Source: Planctomycetaceae bacterium
Lineage (GTDB): Bacteria; Planctomycetota; Planctomycetia; Planctomycetales; Planctomycetaceae
Assembly: GCA_947476295.1 (NCBI GenBank)
Contig: CANJQC010000033.1
Coordinates: 1-47,499 of the forward strand
Length of the DNA: 47,499 bases
Reading direction: 5' to 3'
The stretch's first letter is position 1. Every line of letters begins with the position of its first letter. The translations under genes and the position numbers were made by a program. Of the stretch, positions 6,833 to 47,499 are shown piece by piece. Under the pieces are notes generated by a model. The model worked only from the letters and a program-made list of their open reading frames with translations, was not told where the DNA came from and ran no database searches.

Positions 6833-8041
6833 ATGAGTGACCACGAACAACATTCTTATTCACCGTCAGAGCATCACGCGCCTGCCGCGAACGGCTGGCT
6901 TGTGATTGTGCTCATCGGCCTAGTGGCCGTGCTGGTGTTCAAGACAGGCACGGACACTTGGCGAAATCGTCACGATTACACTCAGCGCACTGTCACGCCA
7001 CGCGGCGATCTGGCGGCTGATGAAGCGGCCATGGTTGAACTGTTCGAGAAAGTCTCTCCTTCAGTCGTGTACGTCCGGATGAAGTCGAAGGGCGTGCTGC
7101 AGGCCAATGATGGCAGCCTCGCAGAACAGGAAATTGGATCCGGGACCGGCTTCGTCTGGGATGAAAACGGTCACATCATCACAAATCTGCACGTCGTGCG
7201 AGACGCACTGTTCAGGCAAGGAGCAGAGTTGGAGGTGCAACTGGGGGACTCAGCAAATTCCACAAGTCTTCAAGTATTCACTGCAGAGTTTGTGGGGGCG
7301 GTTTCCAAGCACGATATCGCTGTGCTGAAAATCGCAGCCGAACCTTCGCTGCTGGTACCAATCACCATCGGATCGTCAGACGATCTGAAGGTTGGGCAAA
7401 CCGTGCTGGCAATCGGCAATCCGTTTCGTTTTGAGCGGACGCTGTCCACGGGCGTGATCGGCGGACTCAATCGAAGCGTCGGCACCAACGATGGGAATAT
7501 CCTTGCGGGGATGATTCAGACGGATGCCGCCATCAATCCCGGCAATTCCGGAGGTCCGCTGCTCGACAGTGCAGGTCGCCTGATTGGTGTCACCACCGCG
7601 ATCGTAAGCACTAGTGGCGCGTCAGCCGGACTGGGCTTTGCGGTGCCAGTCAACAACGTTCATCAGTCCGTGGAGTTGGTCATGCACGAGTCCATTAACA
7701 ACCAGATGCCGTCTATGGGGATCGCTATCCTCGATAGCGAAACCGCCCGCGACAATGGCATCCCGGAACAACTACTGGCTGGTGGCCTTGTCGTGCTCTA
7801 TGTCTACCCCAACACACCCGCAGAAGCCGTCGGACTCCAAGGATGCAGCAAACACGATGGACGATTCTTTCTGGGTGACCAGATCACCGCCATCAACGAC
7901 ACGAAAATCCGTACCTTCGACGACCTCACCCTCCTCATGCAAACCTTCAAGCCAGGCCAATCGATCCAACTCGTCGTCGTCCGAGCGGCTCAGCAAACAA
8001 CGGTAGAGTTGACGCTGGAGCCCAGAAAAGTCTTGTTGTAA
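6833..8041 (+). CDS. Membrane-anchored HtrA/DegP-type serine protease with PDZ domain
   Basis: The product is a 402-residue envelope protease of the HtrA family, which degrades or processes misfolded exported proteins. A charged N-terminus precedes one membrane segment at about residues 21-36, so the catalytic part should face the periplasm. The trypsin-like domain keeps the full triad: His120 in TNLHVV, Asp161 in KHDIAVLKI and Ser239 in GNSGGPLL. A single PDZ domain covers about residues 290-395, with GLVVLYVYPNTPAEAVGL and LGDQITAIN. The usual HtrA has one or two PDZ domains, so this matches the one-PDZ DegS/HtrA group. The start ATG at 6833 has only a weak GGAA upstream. The gene stands alone, converging on the acetyltransferase gene. 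The annotation is firm; its substrates are unknown. Confidence 0.92.
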   Translation: MSDHEQHSYSPSEHHAPAANGWLVIVLIGLVAVLVFKTGTDTWRNRHDYTQRTVTPRGDLAADEAAMVELFEKVSPSVVYVRMKSKGVLQANDGSLAEQEIGSGTGFVWDENGHIITNLHVVRDALFRQGAELEVQLGDSANSTSLQVFTAEFVGAVSKHDIAVLKIAAEPSLLVPITIGSSDDLKVGQTVLAIGNPFRFERTLSTGVIGGLNRSVGTNDGNILAGMIQTDAAINPGNSGGPLLDSAGRLIGVTTAIVSTSGASAGLGFAVPVNNVHQSVELVMHESINNQMPSMGIAILDSETARDNGIPEQLLAGGLVVLYVYPNTPAEAVGLQGCSKHDGRFFLGDQITAINDTKIRTFDDLTLLMQTFKPGQSIQLVVVRAAQQTTVELTLEPRKVLL

Positions 8042-8147
8042 GCTGAATGGTGGCTGCGGCCTGTCGATTCAGAGGTCAGATTGTCGGATCTTGTGGGATA
8101 GGCAATCATCTGTTTTTTTGTCGTAAATGCTGTCGGTAAACCGCCGA

Positions 8148-8675
8148 TCATGTTGCTCGGAAAAATGCTCCGTCTTCAACGTCTTGAGAGACAACTCGCC
8201 CCGCGCCGACGACTGCTCCGCGTCCGACGCGAACGTTTTGCAGGATAATGCAGCGGCAGGCCAGCCAAGCGCCATGGGCAATCACAATTGCGCCGGTGCG
8301 CAACTCAAATGTCGGTGATTTGCGATCGTGGCTGCCTGTGCATAAATATGCACCTTGGGAAATGCAAACGTCACTTTCGAGTGTGACCTGATCCAGATTG
8401 TCGATCCAGACGTCCTGACCAAGCCAGCAGTAATCACCGATTTCAAGTTTCCATGGAAACTTGATTCTGACTTGTGGCTTTAGTATGACTCCCCGACCGA
8501 CACGAGCACCAAACAGTCGCAGTAAGCAAACTTTGACACCTGAAACCGGAACCCAGCCGTTTTCGAATACCACCAGACTCAGGAAGTACCAGATCATACA
8601 AATCAAGCGTCCTCGGCCTGGATTGAACTCGGGATTGCGGTACGCTGCCAGATTACGGATTCGCGGTTCGGACAT
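8148..8675 (-). CDS. WcaF-like putative acetyltransferase (left-handed beta-helix)
   Basis: This resembles the WcaF acyltransferases of colanic-acid-type clusters, which O-acetylate sugars during polysaccharide synthesis. Seen are RLFGARVGRGVILKPQ, the WcaF signature FPWKLEIGDYCWLG, and SQGAYLCTGSHDRKSPTFEL, followed by hexapeptide repeats that form the beta-helix. The catalytic His is in GSHD. The frame stops at DGAFFRAT, where relatives continue through a VVAGNPA-type ending, so roughly a dozen C-terminal residues are missing. ATG at 8675 gives 175 residues and matches the family; an upstream start at 8696 is possible. It is the last gene of the minus-strand locus and converges with the protease gene about 106 bases away. 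Whether the short C-terminus leaves it active is unclear. Confidence 0.75.
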   Translation of the reverse strand: MSEPRIRNLAAYRNPEFNPGRGRLICMIWYFLSLVVFENGWVPVSGVKVCLLRLFGARVGRGVILKPQVRIKFPWKLEIGDYCWLGQDVWIDNLDQVTLESDVCISQGAYLCTGSHDRKSPTFELRTGAIVIAHGAWLACRCIILQNVRVGRGAVVGAGRVVSQDVEDGAFFRAT

Positions 8676-9136: not shown

Positions 9137-10726
9137 TTATTTCTGCGGTTGCACCGATTGTTGTGCCAATTGCCGATGTTCTTTGGCAATATCCGGAAAT
9201 CCAAGATGGTCATAAACTTCTGCTAACTGGCCGTGGAGCAGTCTGGAATTCTGCGTTCCATTTGACGGATCTGTTGTTTCTTTTAACACGAGTTCGAAAT
9301 CCGCCAAGGCCTCATTCCAGCGCTGCAATTTCATGAAGATGGTTCCGCGCGTGTCGAGAAATTGAAGATTCTGAGGTTCAGACTCAAGTGCCTGATTGAT
9401 CATCCCGAGAGCCCGTTCGAGATCCGACTGCTGTTTGTTTTTGGCCAGCAACCACGCCAGATTGTTCAGGACATAAGTCAGTTTTGGATTAATGGAAATG
9501 GCCCGTTCAAAATGGAATCGAGCCGACTTCGGATCATTCTCAATCCAACACAAATTTCCCAGAGCAAGATGGGCGAGGGCCGGCTCTTTGCCCTCAGCAA
9601 CCACTCGACTCAGCGACGAACGCAATTCGGAATTATCGCCGGAAACGGAGTTTATTTTCGACATTAGACGACTCAGAGCCGGAGCAAAATTTGGCTCATA
9701 CTCGAGGGCCTTGTCCAACGGAGAGAACATTTCTCCAAGGCTGTGCCCTCTTTCTCTCGAAAGGATATCGTGAGCATTCACATATAGCCCGGCAAGCAAA
9801 ATCTTCCAGTTGCCGTTCGGCTCCAGTTTGAGCCCATTCTCCAGAACCTGCCGGGCCTCTTCCATTTCTCCAAGACGGGCCAATACGACGGCAAACTCCT
9901 CACGCGTTTTTCCGTCCTCCGGCGATTTCAAAAGCCGGCCTCTGAGAAAATCTTTAGCGTTTGTGTAACTCTCAACTGCCTCTTCCTGCTTCCCGAGGAT
10001 CAAACTCAGCGTCCCCAATGTGGACCATGCTTCAGGGAAGGTGGCAACAGCCTGCTCCAGGAATCCCCTCGCTTTCTCATAATCCCCCGTAGCAATTTCG
10101 TATCGTCCCCAAGCCAGAAGCATCTCGGGCGACTTTTCATCGTCGGCCGCCTGCAGATGGTGATGGGCTCTTGAAATCTCATCGGGCGTGCTTGTCTCTC
10201 CAAGCAATGCACACAAATCACCGGCGCGAAGACGGTGCGCAGCAGAATGCGATCTCCAATCATCCGGAGCCAACTGACGGAACAGGAGTTCGGCCTGCTC
10301 TTTATGTCCTGTTTCCCGATAGAGTGTCGCCAAGGAAAACTTGGCCTCATTGACGAAGCCCGTACCTGTCTGAAGCAGTCTGATCAGGAGCATTTCTGCC
10401 CTTGGATAATCCTTTGCGGAAATCGCCAACTGCGAATCATTCCAGTACCACTGCGGGATGCTGCTCTCAGCTTGTTGGCCACGAATCCTAAGGAGCACCA
10501 GCACCACGATGCCGAGCAAGGCCGGTAGTCCCCCCAAAAAAATTCTCCACATCCGCTCTTGCCACGCATTCACGACGGCGCGAAACGGGTACAACAGGAC
10601 GAATGTCAGAAATCCCGGCCGGAGCCACGGTGGCACCCAGCCTGACACCGTAAAGTTTAGGCCCGTCAGTCTGCGCCCAAAACGGCGGAACGGGCGTAAG
10701 ACCGCATCACTCAGAGACTGAAACAT
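9137..10726 (-). CDS. Membrane-anchored tetratricopeptide-repeat protein beside exosortase
   Basis: The 529-residue product has a basic N-terminal segment, one or two hydrophobic stretches (about residues 36-55 and 58-81, including LGGLPALLGIVVLVLLRI), then a long chain of TPR-type helical repeats to the end. Examples are SLATLYRETGHKEQAELLFRQ, LLAWGRYEIATGDYEKARGF and LNNLAWLLAKNKQQ. TPR arrays bind other proteins, so this is probably an inner-membrane scaffold with a large soluble domain. Its ATG overlaps the exosortase stop by one base (TAATG), so the two are almost certainly co-translated. Similar TPR proteins accompany exosortases and exopolysaccharide clusters in other bacteria. Partner proteins cannot be named from sequence. 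Confidence 0.8.
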   Translation of the reverse strand: MFQSLSDAVLRPFRRFGRRLTGLNFTVSGWVPPWLRPGFLTFVLLYPFRAVVNAWQERMWRIFLGGLPALLGIVVLVLLRIRGQQAESSIPQWYWNDSQLAISAKDYPRAEMLLIRLLQTGTGFVNEAKFSLATLYRETGHKEQAELLFRQLAPDDWRSHSAAHRLRAGDLCALLGETSTPDEISRAHHHLQAADDEKSPEMLLAWGRYEIATGDYEKARGFLEQAVATFPEAWSTLGTLSLILGKQEEAVESYTNAKDFLRGRLLKSPEDGKTREEFAVVLARLGEMEEARQVLENGLKLEPNGNWKILLAGLYVNAHDILSRERGHSLGEMFSPLDKALEYEPNFAPALSRLMSKINSVSGDNSELRSSLSRVVAEGKEPALAHLALGNLCWIENDPKSARFHFERAISINPKLTYVLNNLAWLLAKNKQQSDLERALGMINQALESEPQNLQFLDTRGTIFMKLQRWNEALADFELVLKETTDPSNGTQNSRLLHGQLAEVYDHLGFPDIAKEHRQLAQQSVQPQK

Positions 10727-12444
10727 TATGGCGTGACCTTCAACTGTGGCTGCAACTTATCCCGCTGTGTTCGAAAGAAGTCGAGAAAAGCCTGCTCCTC
10801 ATGTGGCAGGAACTCGCGGTCGGCTTCAACGAACAACTGCAACTGATAGATCGGCAGTTTCAGAATTGCGGAATCATTCGCAGCGACAACGCTGGAAAAT
10901 AATCGTTGCTGCACAGCTCGGAGGAAACTCCCAGAAACGGCCGGTGGCATTACAGAAGTCTGGACCGAGTCGAAACAACTGAAGAATACGGTTGCGTGAC
11001 TGCCGGAATTCCGGATCAGTTGCAGCTTTGTATGAAATACGGGCGAGTCATCTGAATCCTTCACTGAACCATTTTCTGCAGAAAGGATTTGCCACCCCAC
11101 ACCAGCGTAGCAGTAAGCCAAGTCGTGCCATTCGGGATAGTAGCCATCAAGTGAAAATACAGCATTGAAGCCATTTCCGCGATACGACCACATCGTTGAG
11201 TGTAAACCGCTGGGGTCTCCCTTACCGCGAATCAACTGATCAAAATCTCTCCGAACCCAGCCATCAATAGACTCTGGCAGTGACTCCTTCTTTACAAAAG
11301 AATGCAGGCTTCCGGAAATGGGCTCCTGCGGAGAAACGTTGCCGCCACTACCAGTCCTGCGGAGAATTGAAATCCATCCGACCGATACAACAAACACACA
11401 GCAAATTGCCACCAGAAAACTAAGCCCCAACCGCCTGGAAGGTAATGCTGAATCCATGAGGTTCCGCAGCCAATCAAGAACTGGGAACCGAAATCGTGCG
11501 ATAAATTCAGTCCGAAGTTCAGCAGCAGAATTGGACCCCACGGGCAGCAAGAATCGAAACAACTGCTCTGAACTCATGGACATCAGCACTGCAAAGCAGT
11601 AAGTGAAGATGCCCAGAGCGTCATGACGCCAACCGACTTCAAGCGGAAAGTCGTACTTGGCATCGCAGTAAACAACTAGAAACACACGAAGCGCATTTGC
11701 CACCACAACCCACAAAACAGTTGTCAGCAGGATCAGGAAGATTCGAATCAACCCGTGGCGGACATAGATACTGAATCCCAGCATCAATGCAATGGCCGAA
11801 AACAAGGAGTTGATCCCACTGCATGCTTCTTTGACCATGTAAGACTCTGTCGCCGTCCGGATAATCACTCCGGAAAGCGAATGCCTGACACCGCGAAGAT
11901 CCAGAGCTGTGCTGGCAACTTCCGATGCATTCAGCTGCAAAGAGCTGATTAGATGGAGATCCAGATTCAGCGGAAGGGGCACCACCATTGCGAGAAACAA
12001 GAACGGCCCCTGCAACTCACGAGCACCGCATGCACCACCGAAGTACCACACCGACGCCCATCCTGTAAGCACACAGGAAATTAGCCCCAGTAAACCGCTA
12101 TTCAAATAAATACCATAAGAAAAGAGAACCATCGAGCCAAGAAGGCACAGCAGTATCCGAACAGAAAAAACCCTCCGCAAAGGGAACTCAATCAGCGGCA
12201 CACGGATATAAAGAAGCCAAACAAAGGCCACTAGAATGACGGGAAAAAACTGATAGTGCGCACGCCCCCAGAGCCATTTCGCCTGGACAATCAGCAATGG
12301 CATGTGGATACCGATGATCAAGGCCGCGACTATCAACCAACGCCGCAACAATCCCGCACGTGCGAGGAGATCCATTTTCTGAACTGGCAGCTTTTCCTGA
12401 TCGCCCGCGAAACCTTGCGTAACAAAGTTGAACAACTTACTCAC
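10726..12444 (-). CDS. Exosortase with C-terminal EpsI-like domain
   Basis: Exosortases are integral-membrane transpeptidase-like enzymes that recognise PEP-CTERM tails. This 572-residue protein has about eight membrane segments in its first 300 residues and then a soluble domain resembling EpsI/DUF3485 (roughly 360-570, with GWVRRDFDQLI and YYPEWHDLAYCYAGVGW). The catalytic residues are visible: Cys208 in EACSGINS, Arg253 in ANALRVF and His274 in RHDALG. The fusion and the organism suggest the planctomycete type (possibly the one called XrtU), but I cannot separate subtypes by eye. The start is GTG at 12444, with AGGGG directly abutting it, which is unusually close; ATG at 12375 is an alternative. 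The PEP-CTERM gene lies just upstream, separated by a terminator. The TPR gene follows with a one-base overlap. Confidence 0.93.
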   Translation of the reverse strand: MSKLFNFVTQGFAGDQEKLPVQKMDLLARAGLLRRWLIVAALIIGIHMPLLIVQAKWLWGRAHYQFFPVILVAFVWLLYIRVPLIEFPLRRVFSVRILLCLLGSMVLFSYGIYLNSGLLGLISCVLTGWASVWYFGGACGARELQGPFLFLAMVVPLPLNLDLHLISSLQLNASEVASTALDLRGVRHSLSGVIIRTATESYMVKEACSGINSLFSAIALMLGFSIYVRHGLIRIFLILLTTVLWVVVANALRVFLVVYCDAKYDFPLEVGWRHDALGIFTYCFAVLMSMSSEQLFRFLLPVGSNSAAELRTEFIARFRFPVLDWLRNLMDSALPSRRLGLSFLVAICCVFVVSVGWISILRRTGSGGNVSPQEPISGSLHSFVKKESLPESIDGWVRRDFDQLIRGKGDPSGLHSTMWSYRGNGFNAVFSLDGYYPEWHDLAYCYAGVGWQILSAENGSVKDSDDSPVFHTKLQLIRNSGSHATVFFSCFDSVQTSVMPPAVSGSFLRAVQQRLFSSVVAANDSAILKLPIYQLQLFVEADREFLPHEEQAFLDFFRTQRDKLQPQLKVTP

Positions 12445-12661: not shown

Positions 12662-13345
12662 TCAGGAGCCTGTACCAACAGCTGCTGACCGATTCGAACG
12701 CCGGCGGTAAGCGACGAACGCACTAATTCCCGTCAACCCAGCCAGAATCAGTGATGCTGGCTCTGGTGTTGCGGTCGCCTGCAGTGCCGAGGAGAATGAG
12801 AAAGTCCCCCCGTTGGCATTGTTGTTTCTATTAATTGAAACCTGCAAGTACCGCGCACTGGCGAGCGCGCCAACATTAGTAAAAGAGGCGCTTGCCACCC
12901 ACACATCGGCATTTGTGGCCGCGAGGGACAGACCACTTACAACTGCTTGGGAGAGAACGGAAGCACCGGGCGTGAATGCATTCAAAACTTTAAACGTCGC
13001 CGTGTATGAACCAGCCCCCGCACCAGTCACCGCAGAGTAAGCAAACTGCAGATAGTTCTGACCCGCAGCGGTTAAATCAACCGGAGCCCGAAGGTCATAA
13101 AAGAAACTAACCTCCCGGCTCGCTCCGGCAGGAATCACCAGCGTGTTGTTGCCAGAGGTTGTGCTTCCCCCCCCCGTTCGTGTAAGGAACCGATCAGCGT
13201 TTGCCAACACCTGCGTGGGAGACGGTACGGGCGAAATTGCGGCTGGCAGTGCCGTACTAAACGGATCAATCACCAAGCTTGCCGACCCTGATTGCGCGAT
13301 AGCCATTAAGCTCAAAAAACAAAGAACTCTTTTTACAAGCACCAC
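12662..13345 (-). CDS. PEP-CTERM sorting-domain protein
   Basis: A secreted protein and the likely substrate of the neighbouring exosortase. From the chosen start the product has 227 residues: a signal peptide (VLCFLSLMAIAQSGSASL), a beta-rich, Ser/Thr/Ala/Gly-rich body without recognisable enzymatic motifs, and the sorting tail. The tail has TPEPAS at about residues 193-198, then a hydrophobic segment (LILAGLTGISAFVAY), then the basic cluster RRRSN. The start was set at GTG 13345 because AAGGAG lies 7 bases upstream of it; the open frame reaches GTG 13384, but that has no such site. An intrinsic terminator follows. About 290 bases separate it from the next glycosyltransferase gene; I saw no sigma-54 element there. 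Confidence 0.92.
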   Translation of the reverse strand: MVLVKRVLCFLSLMAIAQSGSASLVIDPFSTALPAAISPVPSPTQVLANADRFLTRTGGGSTTSGNNTLVIPAGASREVSFFYDLRAPVDLTAAGQNYLQFAYSAVTGAGAGSYTATFKVLNAFTPGASVLSQAVVSGLSLAATNADVWVASASFTNVGALASARYLQVSINRNNNANGGTFSFSSALQATATPEPASLILAGLTGISAFVAYRRRSNRSAAVGTGS

Positions 13346-13352
13346 AGGAACT

Positions 13353-13358
13353 CTCCTT
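13353..13358 (-). promoter_or_regulatory. Shine-Dalgarno site fixing the PEP-CTERM start
   Basis: On the minus strand AAGGAG lies 7 bases before GTG 13345, the strongest ribosome binding site seen in this locus. It decides the start in favour of this GTG over the upstream GTG at 13384. A second GTG directly follows at 13342 with a 10-base spacing and is less likely. Confidence 0.8.
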
Positions 13359-13636
13359 AAACACACGAAATCACTGACCCTCACTCAGCCTCAAGCTCGA
13401 ATCAAACAGCTAGCTTTCACGATTGCTCCCAGCCTTCCAGTAAAGCTCCATTGACTACGAGCACCGATGTTCTAAATGTATTTCACGAAAGTCAACCAAT
13501 AGTAATCGCAGAAAATGAAAGCATTCCAAATTATCAGACGGGGGGATTTAGGGGATATTTTATGCTCGTCCCGAAAAGGCCGCAACTGAACATCAGTTAC
13601 CAGCCTATACGCCTAGCCCTTGAAAAACCAGCTGCT

Positions 13637-45387: not shown

Positions 45388-46920
45388 TCAGGCCGTTGCC
45401 TGCTGAGGCTGTTGCAGCGATCCCGACTCAGATAATGACGGTGATTTCCGAGGAGCATACTTTTCGTGGACTTCACCAATTAATTCAATTAGCTGAGTCT
45501 CAAACGGTCGCAATCCGCCGATCAGGTCACTCATCCATTCACAAATTGAACCCTTGCCACACCCACCCAGAACTTTGATATGACCAACCCGGTGGCCATC
45601 AATGATCAGCGGAATCTCTGAATGCCATGCGTCTTGCTGTTCCACTTTGGAGGTGGATCGCCAACTCGCATAATAGTCTTCGCCGACACTGGGAATGTTC
45701 ACCAGCAATTCAACCTCATCCATTTCAAAGCGTTCGGCAAACTCTGTCAGTGTTCGCCAAAGTTGATGCCATTCCTGCTTCCCATGCAACTGAACCTGCT
45801 CATCATGCAGCACCGGCCTGATTCCTTGAGGCGTGCGAAACAGGGAACCCGCGAAGCGACGCACTCGGTTTGTCAGCAAGGTTAATTCGGCAGCGCCAAA
45901 GGACCTTGTGGCCACCAGAATTGCCAGAGCCGTCGCGACACCCAGCACAGCAAGCATCTCGTTGTTAAATGCGGCGGCGGCGACAGCACCAAGCCCTGTC
46001 AGCCCGCACAGTGATCCCACCACCAGCAGCAAACGAGATTCTGAATGGCCCCGGCGAACCAAGCAGTGATGCAAGTGACCGCGGTCCGTGGAATAAATGC
46101 TGCGACCTGTCAGCCGACGTCTTACGATCGCCATTGCCACGTCAAAAATCGGGATGGCCCAAATGGCGGTGGGCATAACCAACGCCATCGCAGCATATTG
46201 CTTGAAGGAACATTTCAAGGCCACGCATCCCACAACCAACCCGATCAGCATACTTCCCGAATCGCCCAGAAACATGCGAGCCGGAGGAAAGTTAAAGAAC
46301 AGAAACCCAGTGAGGGCTCCCGCCAATGCGAGCGAGATTATCAAACCGTCAGGCCGACCGCCAATTATCACTGTCACGCCGGCCACGGAAAGACTGAGAA
46401 CGATTCCGATCGTACTCGCCAGACCATCGACACCGTCAATCAGATTCAGCGCGTTAATCGCGCCCAGAATCCACAACACAGTGACAATCGAAGAAAAATC
46501 TCCAAATTCGATCGGGATGCCGAAGACCTGTATTTTGCGGATCGCAATCCCGGACGGAATCATTATCACCGCTGCGAAAAACTGTCCAAACAGTTTTTGG
46601 CGACCTCGCAAACTGATCTTGTCATCCATGATTCCGAGGACCACAATCAAACCTCCTGCCACGCCCAGCAACATCAGAAATCGAATGTCGGCGTACGTCG
46701 GCAGCAGGGTTGGATGCACCCATAACGTGGCACCTAGACCGATAAACAGCGAAATCAGCACCGTCGGGCCGCCTGCAAGAGGTACGATCCGAGCGTGCAG
46801 TTTCCGCTGACCGTCAGGACGGTCCACCACCCCGAACCGTCGAGCGATCAACGCCACAATCGGCGCAAAGATGGCCGAACATGCCAAAGCCGAGAAAAAT
46901 GCAATCAGACTGGGATTCAT
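45388..46920 (-). CDS. WecA-like undecaprenyl-phosphate sugar-1-phosphate transferase
   Basis: The initiating transferase: it moves a sugar-1-phosphate, typically GlcNAc-1-P, onto undecaprenyl phosphate in the inner membrane. The MraY/WecA motifs are intact: VDRPDGQRKLHARIVPLAGG, GIMDDKISLRGRQKLFGQ, NALNLIDGVDGLA, MFLGDSGSMLIG and DRGHLHHCLVRRGHS. About ten or eleven membrane segments cover the first 340 residues. A further soluble extension of about 170 residues follows (FEMDEVELLVNIPSVGEDYY, EIPLIIDGHRVGHIKVL), much beyond the usual 320-370 length. ATG 46920 is preferred over TTG 46923. It is the first gene of the locus and lies 77 bases downstream of a sigma-54 promoter. Confidence 0.92.
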   Translation of the reverse strand: MNPSLIAFFSALACSAIFAPIVALIARRFGVVDRPDGQRKLHARIVPLAGGPTVLISLFIGLGATLWVHPTLLPTYADIRFLMLLGVAGGLIVVLGIMDDKISLRGRQKLFGQFFAAVIMIPSGIAIRKIQVFGIPIEFGDFSSIVTVLWILGAINALNLIDGVDGLASTIGIVLSLSVAGVTVIIGGRPDGLIISLALAGALTGFLFFNFPPARMFLGDSGSMLIGLVVGCVALKCSFKQYAAMALVMPTAIWAIPIFDVAMAIVRRRLTGRSIYSTDRGHLHHCLVRRGHSESRLLLVVGSLCGLTGLGAVAAAAFNNEMLAVLGVATALAILVATRSFGAAELTLLTNRVRRFAGSLFRTPQGIRPVLHDEQVQLHGKQEWHQLWRTLTEFAERFEMDEVELLVNIPSVGEDYYASWRSTSKVEQQDAWHSEIPLIIDGHRVGHIKVLGGCGKGSICEWMSDLIGGLRPFETQLIELIGEVHEKYAPRKSPSLSESGSLQQPQQATA

Positions 46921-46996
46921 CAAGATTTCGCCGATCGGCGGAGGTCCATGAAGAACCCACCTTGCTGTTCAACAACTCGTTGATGAGCATCAACGC

Positions 46997-47014
46997 AAGC
47001 AATTCCCGTGCCAA
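46997..47014 (-). promoter_or_regulatory. Sigma-54 (-24/-12) promoter for the WecA-like gene
   Basis: Read on the minus strand the site is TTGGCACGGGAATTGCTT. It matches the RpoN consensus YTGGCACGrNNNTTGCW at every fixed position, with the GG and GC at the exact 10-base spacing. It faces the WecA-like gene, and transcription would start about 65 bases before its ATG. Sigma-54 promoters need an enhancer-binding protein; two dyads lie upstream at the right distance. Sigma-54 control has been described for exosortase-linked polysaccharide loci (the PrsK/PrsR pair). The match is seen; activity is inferred. Confidence 0.85.
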
Positions 47015-47074
47015 ACAATGCAGCAGAGCCAATAAATCTACCCGGCCATTCTAGCCATCCCGGATTCACTGCAA

Positions 47075-47088
47075 TTAGAGAGCTCTAA
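47075..47088. promoter_or_regulatory. Dyad TTAGAG-AG-CTCTAA, candidate enhancer site
   Basis: A perfect 6-bp inverted repeat centred about 95 bases upstream of the predicted sigma-54 start site, the typical place of an upstream activator site for an enhancer-binding protein. It could also be chance. No protein partner is encoded in this window. Confidence 0.4.
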
Positions 47089-47124
47089 AGTAATTCTCGC
47101 ATTATTCCTGTGGCGGGAAACCCC

Positions 47125-47138
47125 TTGCAAGTGTGCAA
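47125..47138. promoter_or_regulatory. Dyad TTGCA-AGTG-TGCAA, second candidate enhancer site
   Basis: A 5-bp inverted repeat around a 4-base spacer, about 145 bases upstream of the predicted start site. It differs in sequence from the nearer dyad, so at most one is likely to be the true activator site. Confidence 0.3.
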
Positions 47139-47276
47139 TCGGTGATTCACAAGAAATTCGCACAAGAGTCCTATGTTCCTCATTTTCCAAGAATCGTGCT
47201 GGAAAAATGCAACAGTTGTGCGCTAGGCAGCAGCGAAGTTGGGGTTGCGTTGGGATGTTGATCAGGTGAGATTTGT

Positions 47277-47499
47277 TTACGGTATTTGAGGGGAAAAGGC
47301 GAGACGTCGTTGAGCCTGTACGGAGACTGGCAGATGTTCTTTGCACCACGCTTTCACGAGTTTCGCACGAGTTTTGTCCAAGGCGTCTTTGATTCTTGTC
47401 GTGGTCCAGTCTCCCACCACAGCCCCGAGGCTCAGGACGTAACGTGTGAAGCCGCTGGAGCATTGATCGCCCTCCAGCGTTTGGAGTTTCCCGAACACC
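47277..47499 (-). CDS. Possible partial hypothetical protein at the right edge
   Basis: The frame enters from beyond the right edge and ends at 47277 with the sequence QAQRRLAFSPQIP. It reads protein-like (TRIKDALDKTRAKLVKAWCKEHL), but I cannot place it in a family. If real, it is the 3' end of a minus-strand gene whose start lies outside. The roughly 260 bases between it and the sigma-54 promoter have no other gene. Confidence 0.35.
   Translation of the reverse strand, partial: VFGKLQTLEGDQCSSGFTRYVLSLGAVVGDWTTTRIKDALDKTRAKLVKAWCKEHLPVSVQAQRRLAFSPQIP

Follow-up and report, generated by a model that had tools for sequence, protein, structure and literature searches.

The window analysed here, a stretch of 47,499 nucleotides in its whole length, carries a polysaccharide locus headed by a wecA-like gene for a polyprenyl-phosphate sugar-1-phosphate transferase (45388..46920, minus strand, with its ATG at 46920). 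The encoded protein belongs to the Glycos_transf_4 family (PF00953, 123.8 bits), and its match to TIGR02380, the model for WecA of enterobacterial common antigen, was 134.8 bits, below the cut-off of 326.05. A gene for a Wzy_C/O-antigen-ligase-type polymerase (wzy; PF04932; 42622..45363, minus strand) follows 24 nt after wecA, a gap from which we infer that the two genes are probably on the same transcript, and wzc comes 431 nt after wzy. The same locus encodes exosortase U (XrtU; 10726..12444, minus strand; NF033780, 119.2 bits with a cut-off of 40) and an adjoining PEP-CTERM protein (12662..13384, minus strand; PF07589, 22.6 bits with a cut-off of 20.7), and with both an exosortase and a PEP-CTERM protein it is an exosortase locus. 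Upstream of wecA, an open frame with no Pfam match (47038-47499) runs off the contig end. In four genomes of the same genus (G001, G004, G005 and G017; the genome of the window is G000) the protein encoded upstream of wecA shows MARLTQ or MPRLTQ close to the N-terminus, and we take it to be PAPS-reductase-like.

At 47014-46998 on the minus strand lies a sigma-54 -24/-12 element, TTGGCACGGGAATTGCT, with its GG at 47012-47011 and its GC at 47000-46999. The initial annotation had claimed a match to the consensus at all fixed positions and in spacing, 77 bases ahead of the WecA-like gene, and both statements were borne out: GG, GC, the spacing of TGGCAC-N5-TTGCT and all core positions agree with a sigma-54 promoter, and 77 nt separate the element from the ATG at 46920. 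The outer positions of the published consensus are weakly conserved, and the window element does not match all of them. Judged from geometry only, at about 12 nt past the GC, the predicted start of transcription falls at 46985..46989 on the minus strand. A perfect palindrome, CGTTGATG-CT-CATCAACG (46995-46978, minus strand), spans this predicted start and was not seen in the relatives when these were judged by eye; a search of the window against Rfam gave no match.

Within the window, TGGCACNNNNNTTGCW has a single exact match, which is the pre-wecA element, and when up to one mismatch was allowed two matches were found versus a shuffle mean of 2.15. Over the 5.99 Mb of the genome the core pattern gave 12 perfect matches versus 9 for the reversed control, so the perfect string by itself is not significant. 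In a mechanical reading of frames, five of the 12 perfect sites are followed on the same strand by a frame of more than 200 aa beginning 83-151 nt downstream, a count that stands without a control.

We searched 59 genomes for wecA and obtained 15 orthologues of near full length and 45-100% identity in the 18 genomes of the genus, where G010 has a broken-up copy and G012 and G013 gave weak matches only. The upstream DNA was scored with a hand-written sigma-54 weight matrix, which has a maximum of 21.5. At a threshold of 14.9, chosen after the scores were seen, nine of the 15 genus orthologues (G000, G004, G005, G006, G007, G008, G011, G015 and G017) carry an element within 300 bp upstream, while 300 shuffle sets gave none in 287 cases, one in 12 and two in a single case. 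The count was 12/15 at a threshold of 10 (versus a shuffle maximum of 4 in 200 sets), 9/15 for all the thresholds that we set between 12 and 14.85 and 8/15 at 16, with zero on the antisense strand at each threshold; the number of carriers does not hang on the threshold. A weak variant scoring 10.0-10.8, with GG and GC kept, precedes the gene in G003, G009 and G016. Within 300 bp upstream of the orthologues, no element was found in G001, G002 (score of 4.9) and G014 (0.4), nor was one found at the broken copy of G010. The initial annotation had proposed conservation of the element in close relatives as a test, and the outcome is mixed: more distant relatives keep it, whereas the nearest, G001 (90% identical), does not, its best score being 6.0 of 21.5 in one scan and 2.8 in another. 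Outside the genus, none of 14 homologues (from G022 of a sister genus, the family and the class) reaches 14.9 within 600 bp, the best site among them scoring 14.3 at -599.

The eight carrier relatives read TGGCAGG and ATTTGC where the window reads TGGCACG and AATTGC. Among six representative carriers, identity in the core is 0.82 versus 0.22-0.29 in the neighbouring 17-bp windows, which is about chance. When the 384 upstream 17-mers of the window were ranked by conservation in the other five of these carriers, the core and its one-base shifts took ranks 1-3, and they took the same ranks when the comparison covered six other clades with carriers and non-carriers alike, the sister G001 being left out; in a clade-weighted ranking against all 14 other orthologues the core came at rank 28 of 384, with a distal block in the lead. 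As this last ranking is less favourable and the threshold-free count is firmer, our confidence in the promoter is unchanged. The carriers are mutually related, the nine forming about five clades, and the protein tree requires four changes of carrier state, three of them forced by well-supported branches, with the direction, gain or loss, not settled. Most probably, an ancestor within this planctomycete genus already had the element, and some of its descendants have since lost it.

A pattern built from the carriers, TGGCASGGNAWTTGCW, which is sure to recover most of them, gave 12 matches in 36 genomes, nine of them in the 18 genomes of the genus; the control pattern gave no match in the genus and one across the 36 genomes. 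Of the nine genus matches, seven stand immediately in front of wecA, an eighth, at a contig end of G005, has the same upstream gene and looks like the pre-wecA place, and one lies elsewhere, on C147 of the window's own genome, while carriers G008 and G017 are missed. Because nearly all of these matches are pre-wecA, the core is rare apart from this gene. Conservation before the orthologues led us to reject a chance match, though genome-wide the core pattern by itself shows no enrichment. Since most relatives keep the element before the same gene while the surrounding DNA has changed, a real sigma-54 switch is very probable.

The order wecA, wzy, wzc found in the window is the same in G001, G004, G015 and G017. 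When 26 proteins of the window were searched for downstream of wecA, none had a homologue in the 16-18 kb or so covered in G003, G007, G009 and G011, nor in the 1.8 kb covered in G008; by eye, the downstream neighbours in these genomes look unrelated to polysaccharide synthesis. The contig of G006 ends behind wecA, and G014 showed only a weak ABC-transporter match downstream of the gene. Since the element is present both with and without polysaccharide genes nearby, it goes with wecA and not with the locus. The initial annotation had considered the head gene of an exosortase-linked locus to be probably under the control of RpoN and an enhancer-binding protein. The element, its conservation in the genus, the RpoN and activators described below and the exosortase locus all agree with this for the head gene, but control of the whole locus is too wide a claim, because the element accompanies wecA where locus homologues are absent downstream. 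With a gap of 431 nt before wzc, the data support sigma-54 control no further than wecA-wzy.

RpoN is present in the genome (DNA-binding domain, 211 bits), together with 15 proteins that have a sigma-54 activator domain (E <= 1e-20), 13 of which have a GAFTGA-like loop, C174 and C8 being those without it. We compared the 15 with the sets from five relatives, namely G001 and the carriers G004, G006, G007 and G011, and eight have reciprocal best hits in all four tested carriers. One of these eight, the C105 protein (GAF, AAA+ and Fis-type HTH), is absent from G001 and is the only one of the 15 with that pattern, the seven others being likewise in all four carriers. Its loop reads GAFTDA, listed in the passages of PMC4641369 as a variant that keeps activation. 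The C105 protein is our best activator candidate, and one that can be tested; it is an unproven lead from one pattern among 15 proteins in five genomes, and if G001 has lost only the DNA site, any other of the eight may be the activator. Two further proteins absent from G001, C67 and C188, were set aside, being missing also in G007 and G011 and, for C188, in G006. The activator at C19:41078, beside a second exosortase and with its own perfect sigma-54 site, was rejected as a genus-wide activator because only four of 40 genomes match it at E <= 1e-90 (its own, G004 at 75% and two class-level relatives at 41-42%) and the G004 copy has no site of at least 11 in the 565 nt upstream.

Further upstream of wecA, we identified a conserved block at 47119..47173 (minus strand) with a TTGCA-N4-TGCAA dyad at 47125-47138, which is kept in seven genomes (the window's, G001, G004, G005, G006, G015 and G017) and which, over all orthologues, surpasses the sigma-54 core in conservation. 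A block model was built from these same sequences, and up to 150 candidates per genome were scored in 25 genomes (G016 and G017 left out); all matches with E <1e-10 lie at the wecA upstream site, those of G005 on two contig ends. A regulon-wide role for the block was rejected, there being no second strong site among the candidates scored in the 25 genomes. At the 3' end of the block lies a candidate sigma-70-type promoter, TTGCAA-N18-AATAAT (47101..47130, minus strand; 9/12 consensus letters). The main wecA promoter might be this distal site, with an operator in the block, the sigma-54 element being minor or silent in this genome. We regard this as possible, if somewhat unlikely: the block is kept even in G001, where the sigma-54 element is absent, it leads the all-orthologue ranking, and the site is the sole sigma-70-like one in the 700 nt of 46800-47499 (shuffle mean of 0.2), but G007, G008 and G011 have the element without a strong block in the model search, and in the relatives the hexamers make a weak promoter. 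TTGCAA is identical in 7/7 block genomes, whereas the second hexamer is invariant at A2 and T6 alone, the relatives reading CATGAT, CATCAT or CAAGAT, which are poor -10 sequences. Because the element is retained without the block in those three genomes, we conclude that it is kept for itself.

The block could instead be an enhancer site for the sigma-54 activator and not a separate promoter. The perfect dyad would suit this arrangement, and in the window 124 nt separate its start from the element downstream, a usual enhancer distance for sigma-54 activators. Yet the block occurs without the element in G001, the model search detected no strong block beside the element of G007, G008 and G011, and the spacing between dyad and element varies from 124 to 240 nt, all of which makes the enhancer reading unlikely. 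No spaced 4-mer pair is common to all five carrier clades upstream (the null also gave 0), the dyad of this separable block, present in three of the five, is the only one with 5-bp arms shared by more than one clade, and a palindrome at 47088-47075 is not shared with the relatives. As block and element are separable, two promoters are favoured over one promoter with its enhancer. The distal block probably provides a second, sigma-70-type promoter, a weak one as judged from its sequence, in which case sigma-54 would add conditional rather than sole control. A quite improbable reading is that some unrelated regulator uses the conserved core as its operator, the likeness to a -24/-12 element being due to chance. 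The TGGCAG of the relatives, in place of TGGCAC, would be compatible with such an operator, as would the fact that the start at the element is predicted and not mapped; against it, nine carriers and the three weaker sites all preserve GG, GC and their spacing, although these sites were found by that very likeness, and RpoN and activators are present in the genome.

The initial annotation had also regarded the element as a possible extension of the PrsK/PrsR control known from proteobacterial exosortase systems, and this analogy fails on the defining features examined. That the locus encodes XrtU together with a PEP-CTERM protein speaks for it, but the best match in the window's own genome to PrsR (TIGR02915) has 418.1 bits with a cut-off of 502.6, and that to PrsK (TIGR02916) has 100.2 bits with a cut-off of 300. 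In the passages of Haft 2006 (PMC1569441), the PrsR box is a 17-nt motif 1 that ends in TTTACA and precedes the sigma-54 motif by 32-92 nt, and the PEP-CTERM box is reported only in Proteobacteria, before PEP-CTERM genes. Exact TTTACA is absent from the gene strand of the 400 nt upstream at 29/29 wecA-homologue loci, and the target is a wecA-like transferase and not a PEP-CTERM gene. Control of the PrsK/PrsR type is therefore very improbable; the element is not an extension of that system and is a feature of wecA, not of the sugar-coat locus as a whole.

As far as the passages of the published work go, the wecA element shares several features with known systems. Like that described in PMC1569441, it is a sigma-54 -24/-12 motif tied to an exosortase system at a similar distance from the start codon (77 nt here, a mean of 71 nt there), while it differs in preceding wecA, with PrsK and PrsR below cut-off and no PrsR box found. 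In Aquincola tertiaricarbonis, experiments support RpoN1-dependent expression of the PEP-CTERM protein gene pepA (PMC9850573); its promoter likewise has a TGGCAC -24 element tied to an exosortase polysaccharide system, but, unlike here, drives a PEP-CTERM protein gene. Sigma-54 control of exopolysaccharide and cell-exterior genes is already known (PMC3162934, PMC4641369), and these cases resemble ours in having a sigma-54 promoter before an envelope or exopolysaccharide gene, whereas their passages name no wecA-type gene; the text of PMC3162934 has no mention of planctomycet, Rhodopirellula or undecaprenyl. Predicted sigma-54 regulons across phyla include Planctomycetia (PMC12316311), an in-silico sigma-54 prediction in planctomycetes like ours, and undecaprenyl, exosortase and COG0472 were not found in its main text. 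Rhodopirellula is described as having rpoN, and a sigma-54 promoter has been proposed for a different gene there (PMC2754498). A wecA-type sigma-54 target is not mentioned in the passages of these sigma-54 papers.

Given the conservation in the genus, we consider it highly probable that the wecA-like gene has in this element a working, conserved sigma-54 (RpoN) promoter. The RpoN form of RNA polymerase would wait on the -24/-12 element as a closed complex, which a hexameric enhancer-binding protein attached further upstream would open with ATP, and opening would lead to expression of the enzyme that commits the lipid carrier to the glycan, together with the polymerase gene 24 nt behind. A bolder and less likely reading is that the first committed enzyme of the surface glycan has its own sigma-54 switch and a dedicated GAF activator of the C105 type, which, unlike PrsR, has no receiver domain, that both were lost together in G001, and that the switch travels with wecA and not with the locus. 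Were this so, commitment of the lipid carrier would pass a sigma-54 checkpoint of nearly a single gene. Undecaprenyl phosphate also serves peptidoglycan synthesis, so tight control of an initiating transferase would have consequences for the envelope as a whole. If such a conserved sigma-54 promoter works without PrsK/PrsR, this would also suggest that RpoN came to serve glycan synthesis in planctomycetes on its own, apart from the exosortase regulon of Proteobacteria.

Elsewhere in the window's genome, we observed a second exosortase locus on contig C19 (about 36224-51776). It encodes an exosortase of 1788 aa fused to TPR repeats, a DUF3485/EpsI-like protein, a NusG/RfaH-like antiterminator, a polysaccharide export protein and a weakly Wzc-like protein below the cut-offs, and it has a perfect sigma-54 site at C19:40987 and an AAA+ activator with GAFTGA. 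Two further loci, L008 (C48:191 of the same genome) and L067 (near 7819-8589), encode small proteins with a common N-terminal motif, ESGVILSAEI or EYGVILSAEI, which are pilin-like by eye; a perfect sigma-54 string lies roughly 400 nt ahead of the start of the L008 protein.
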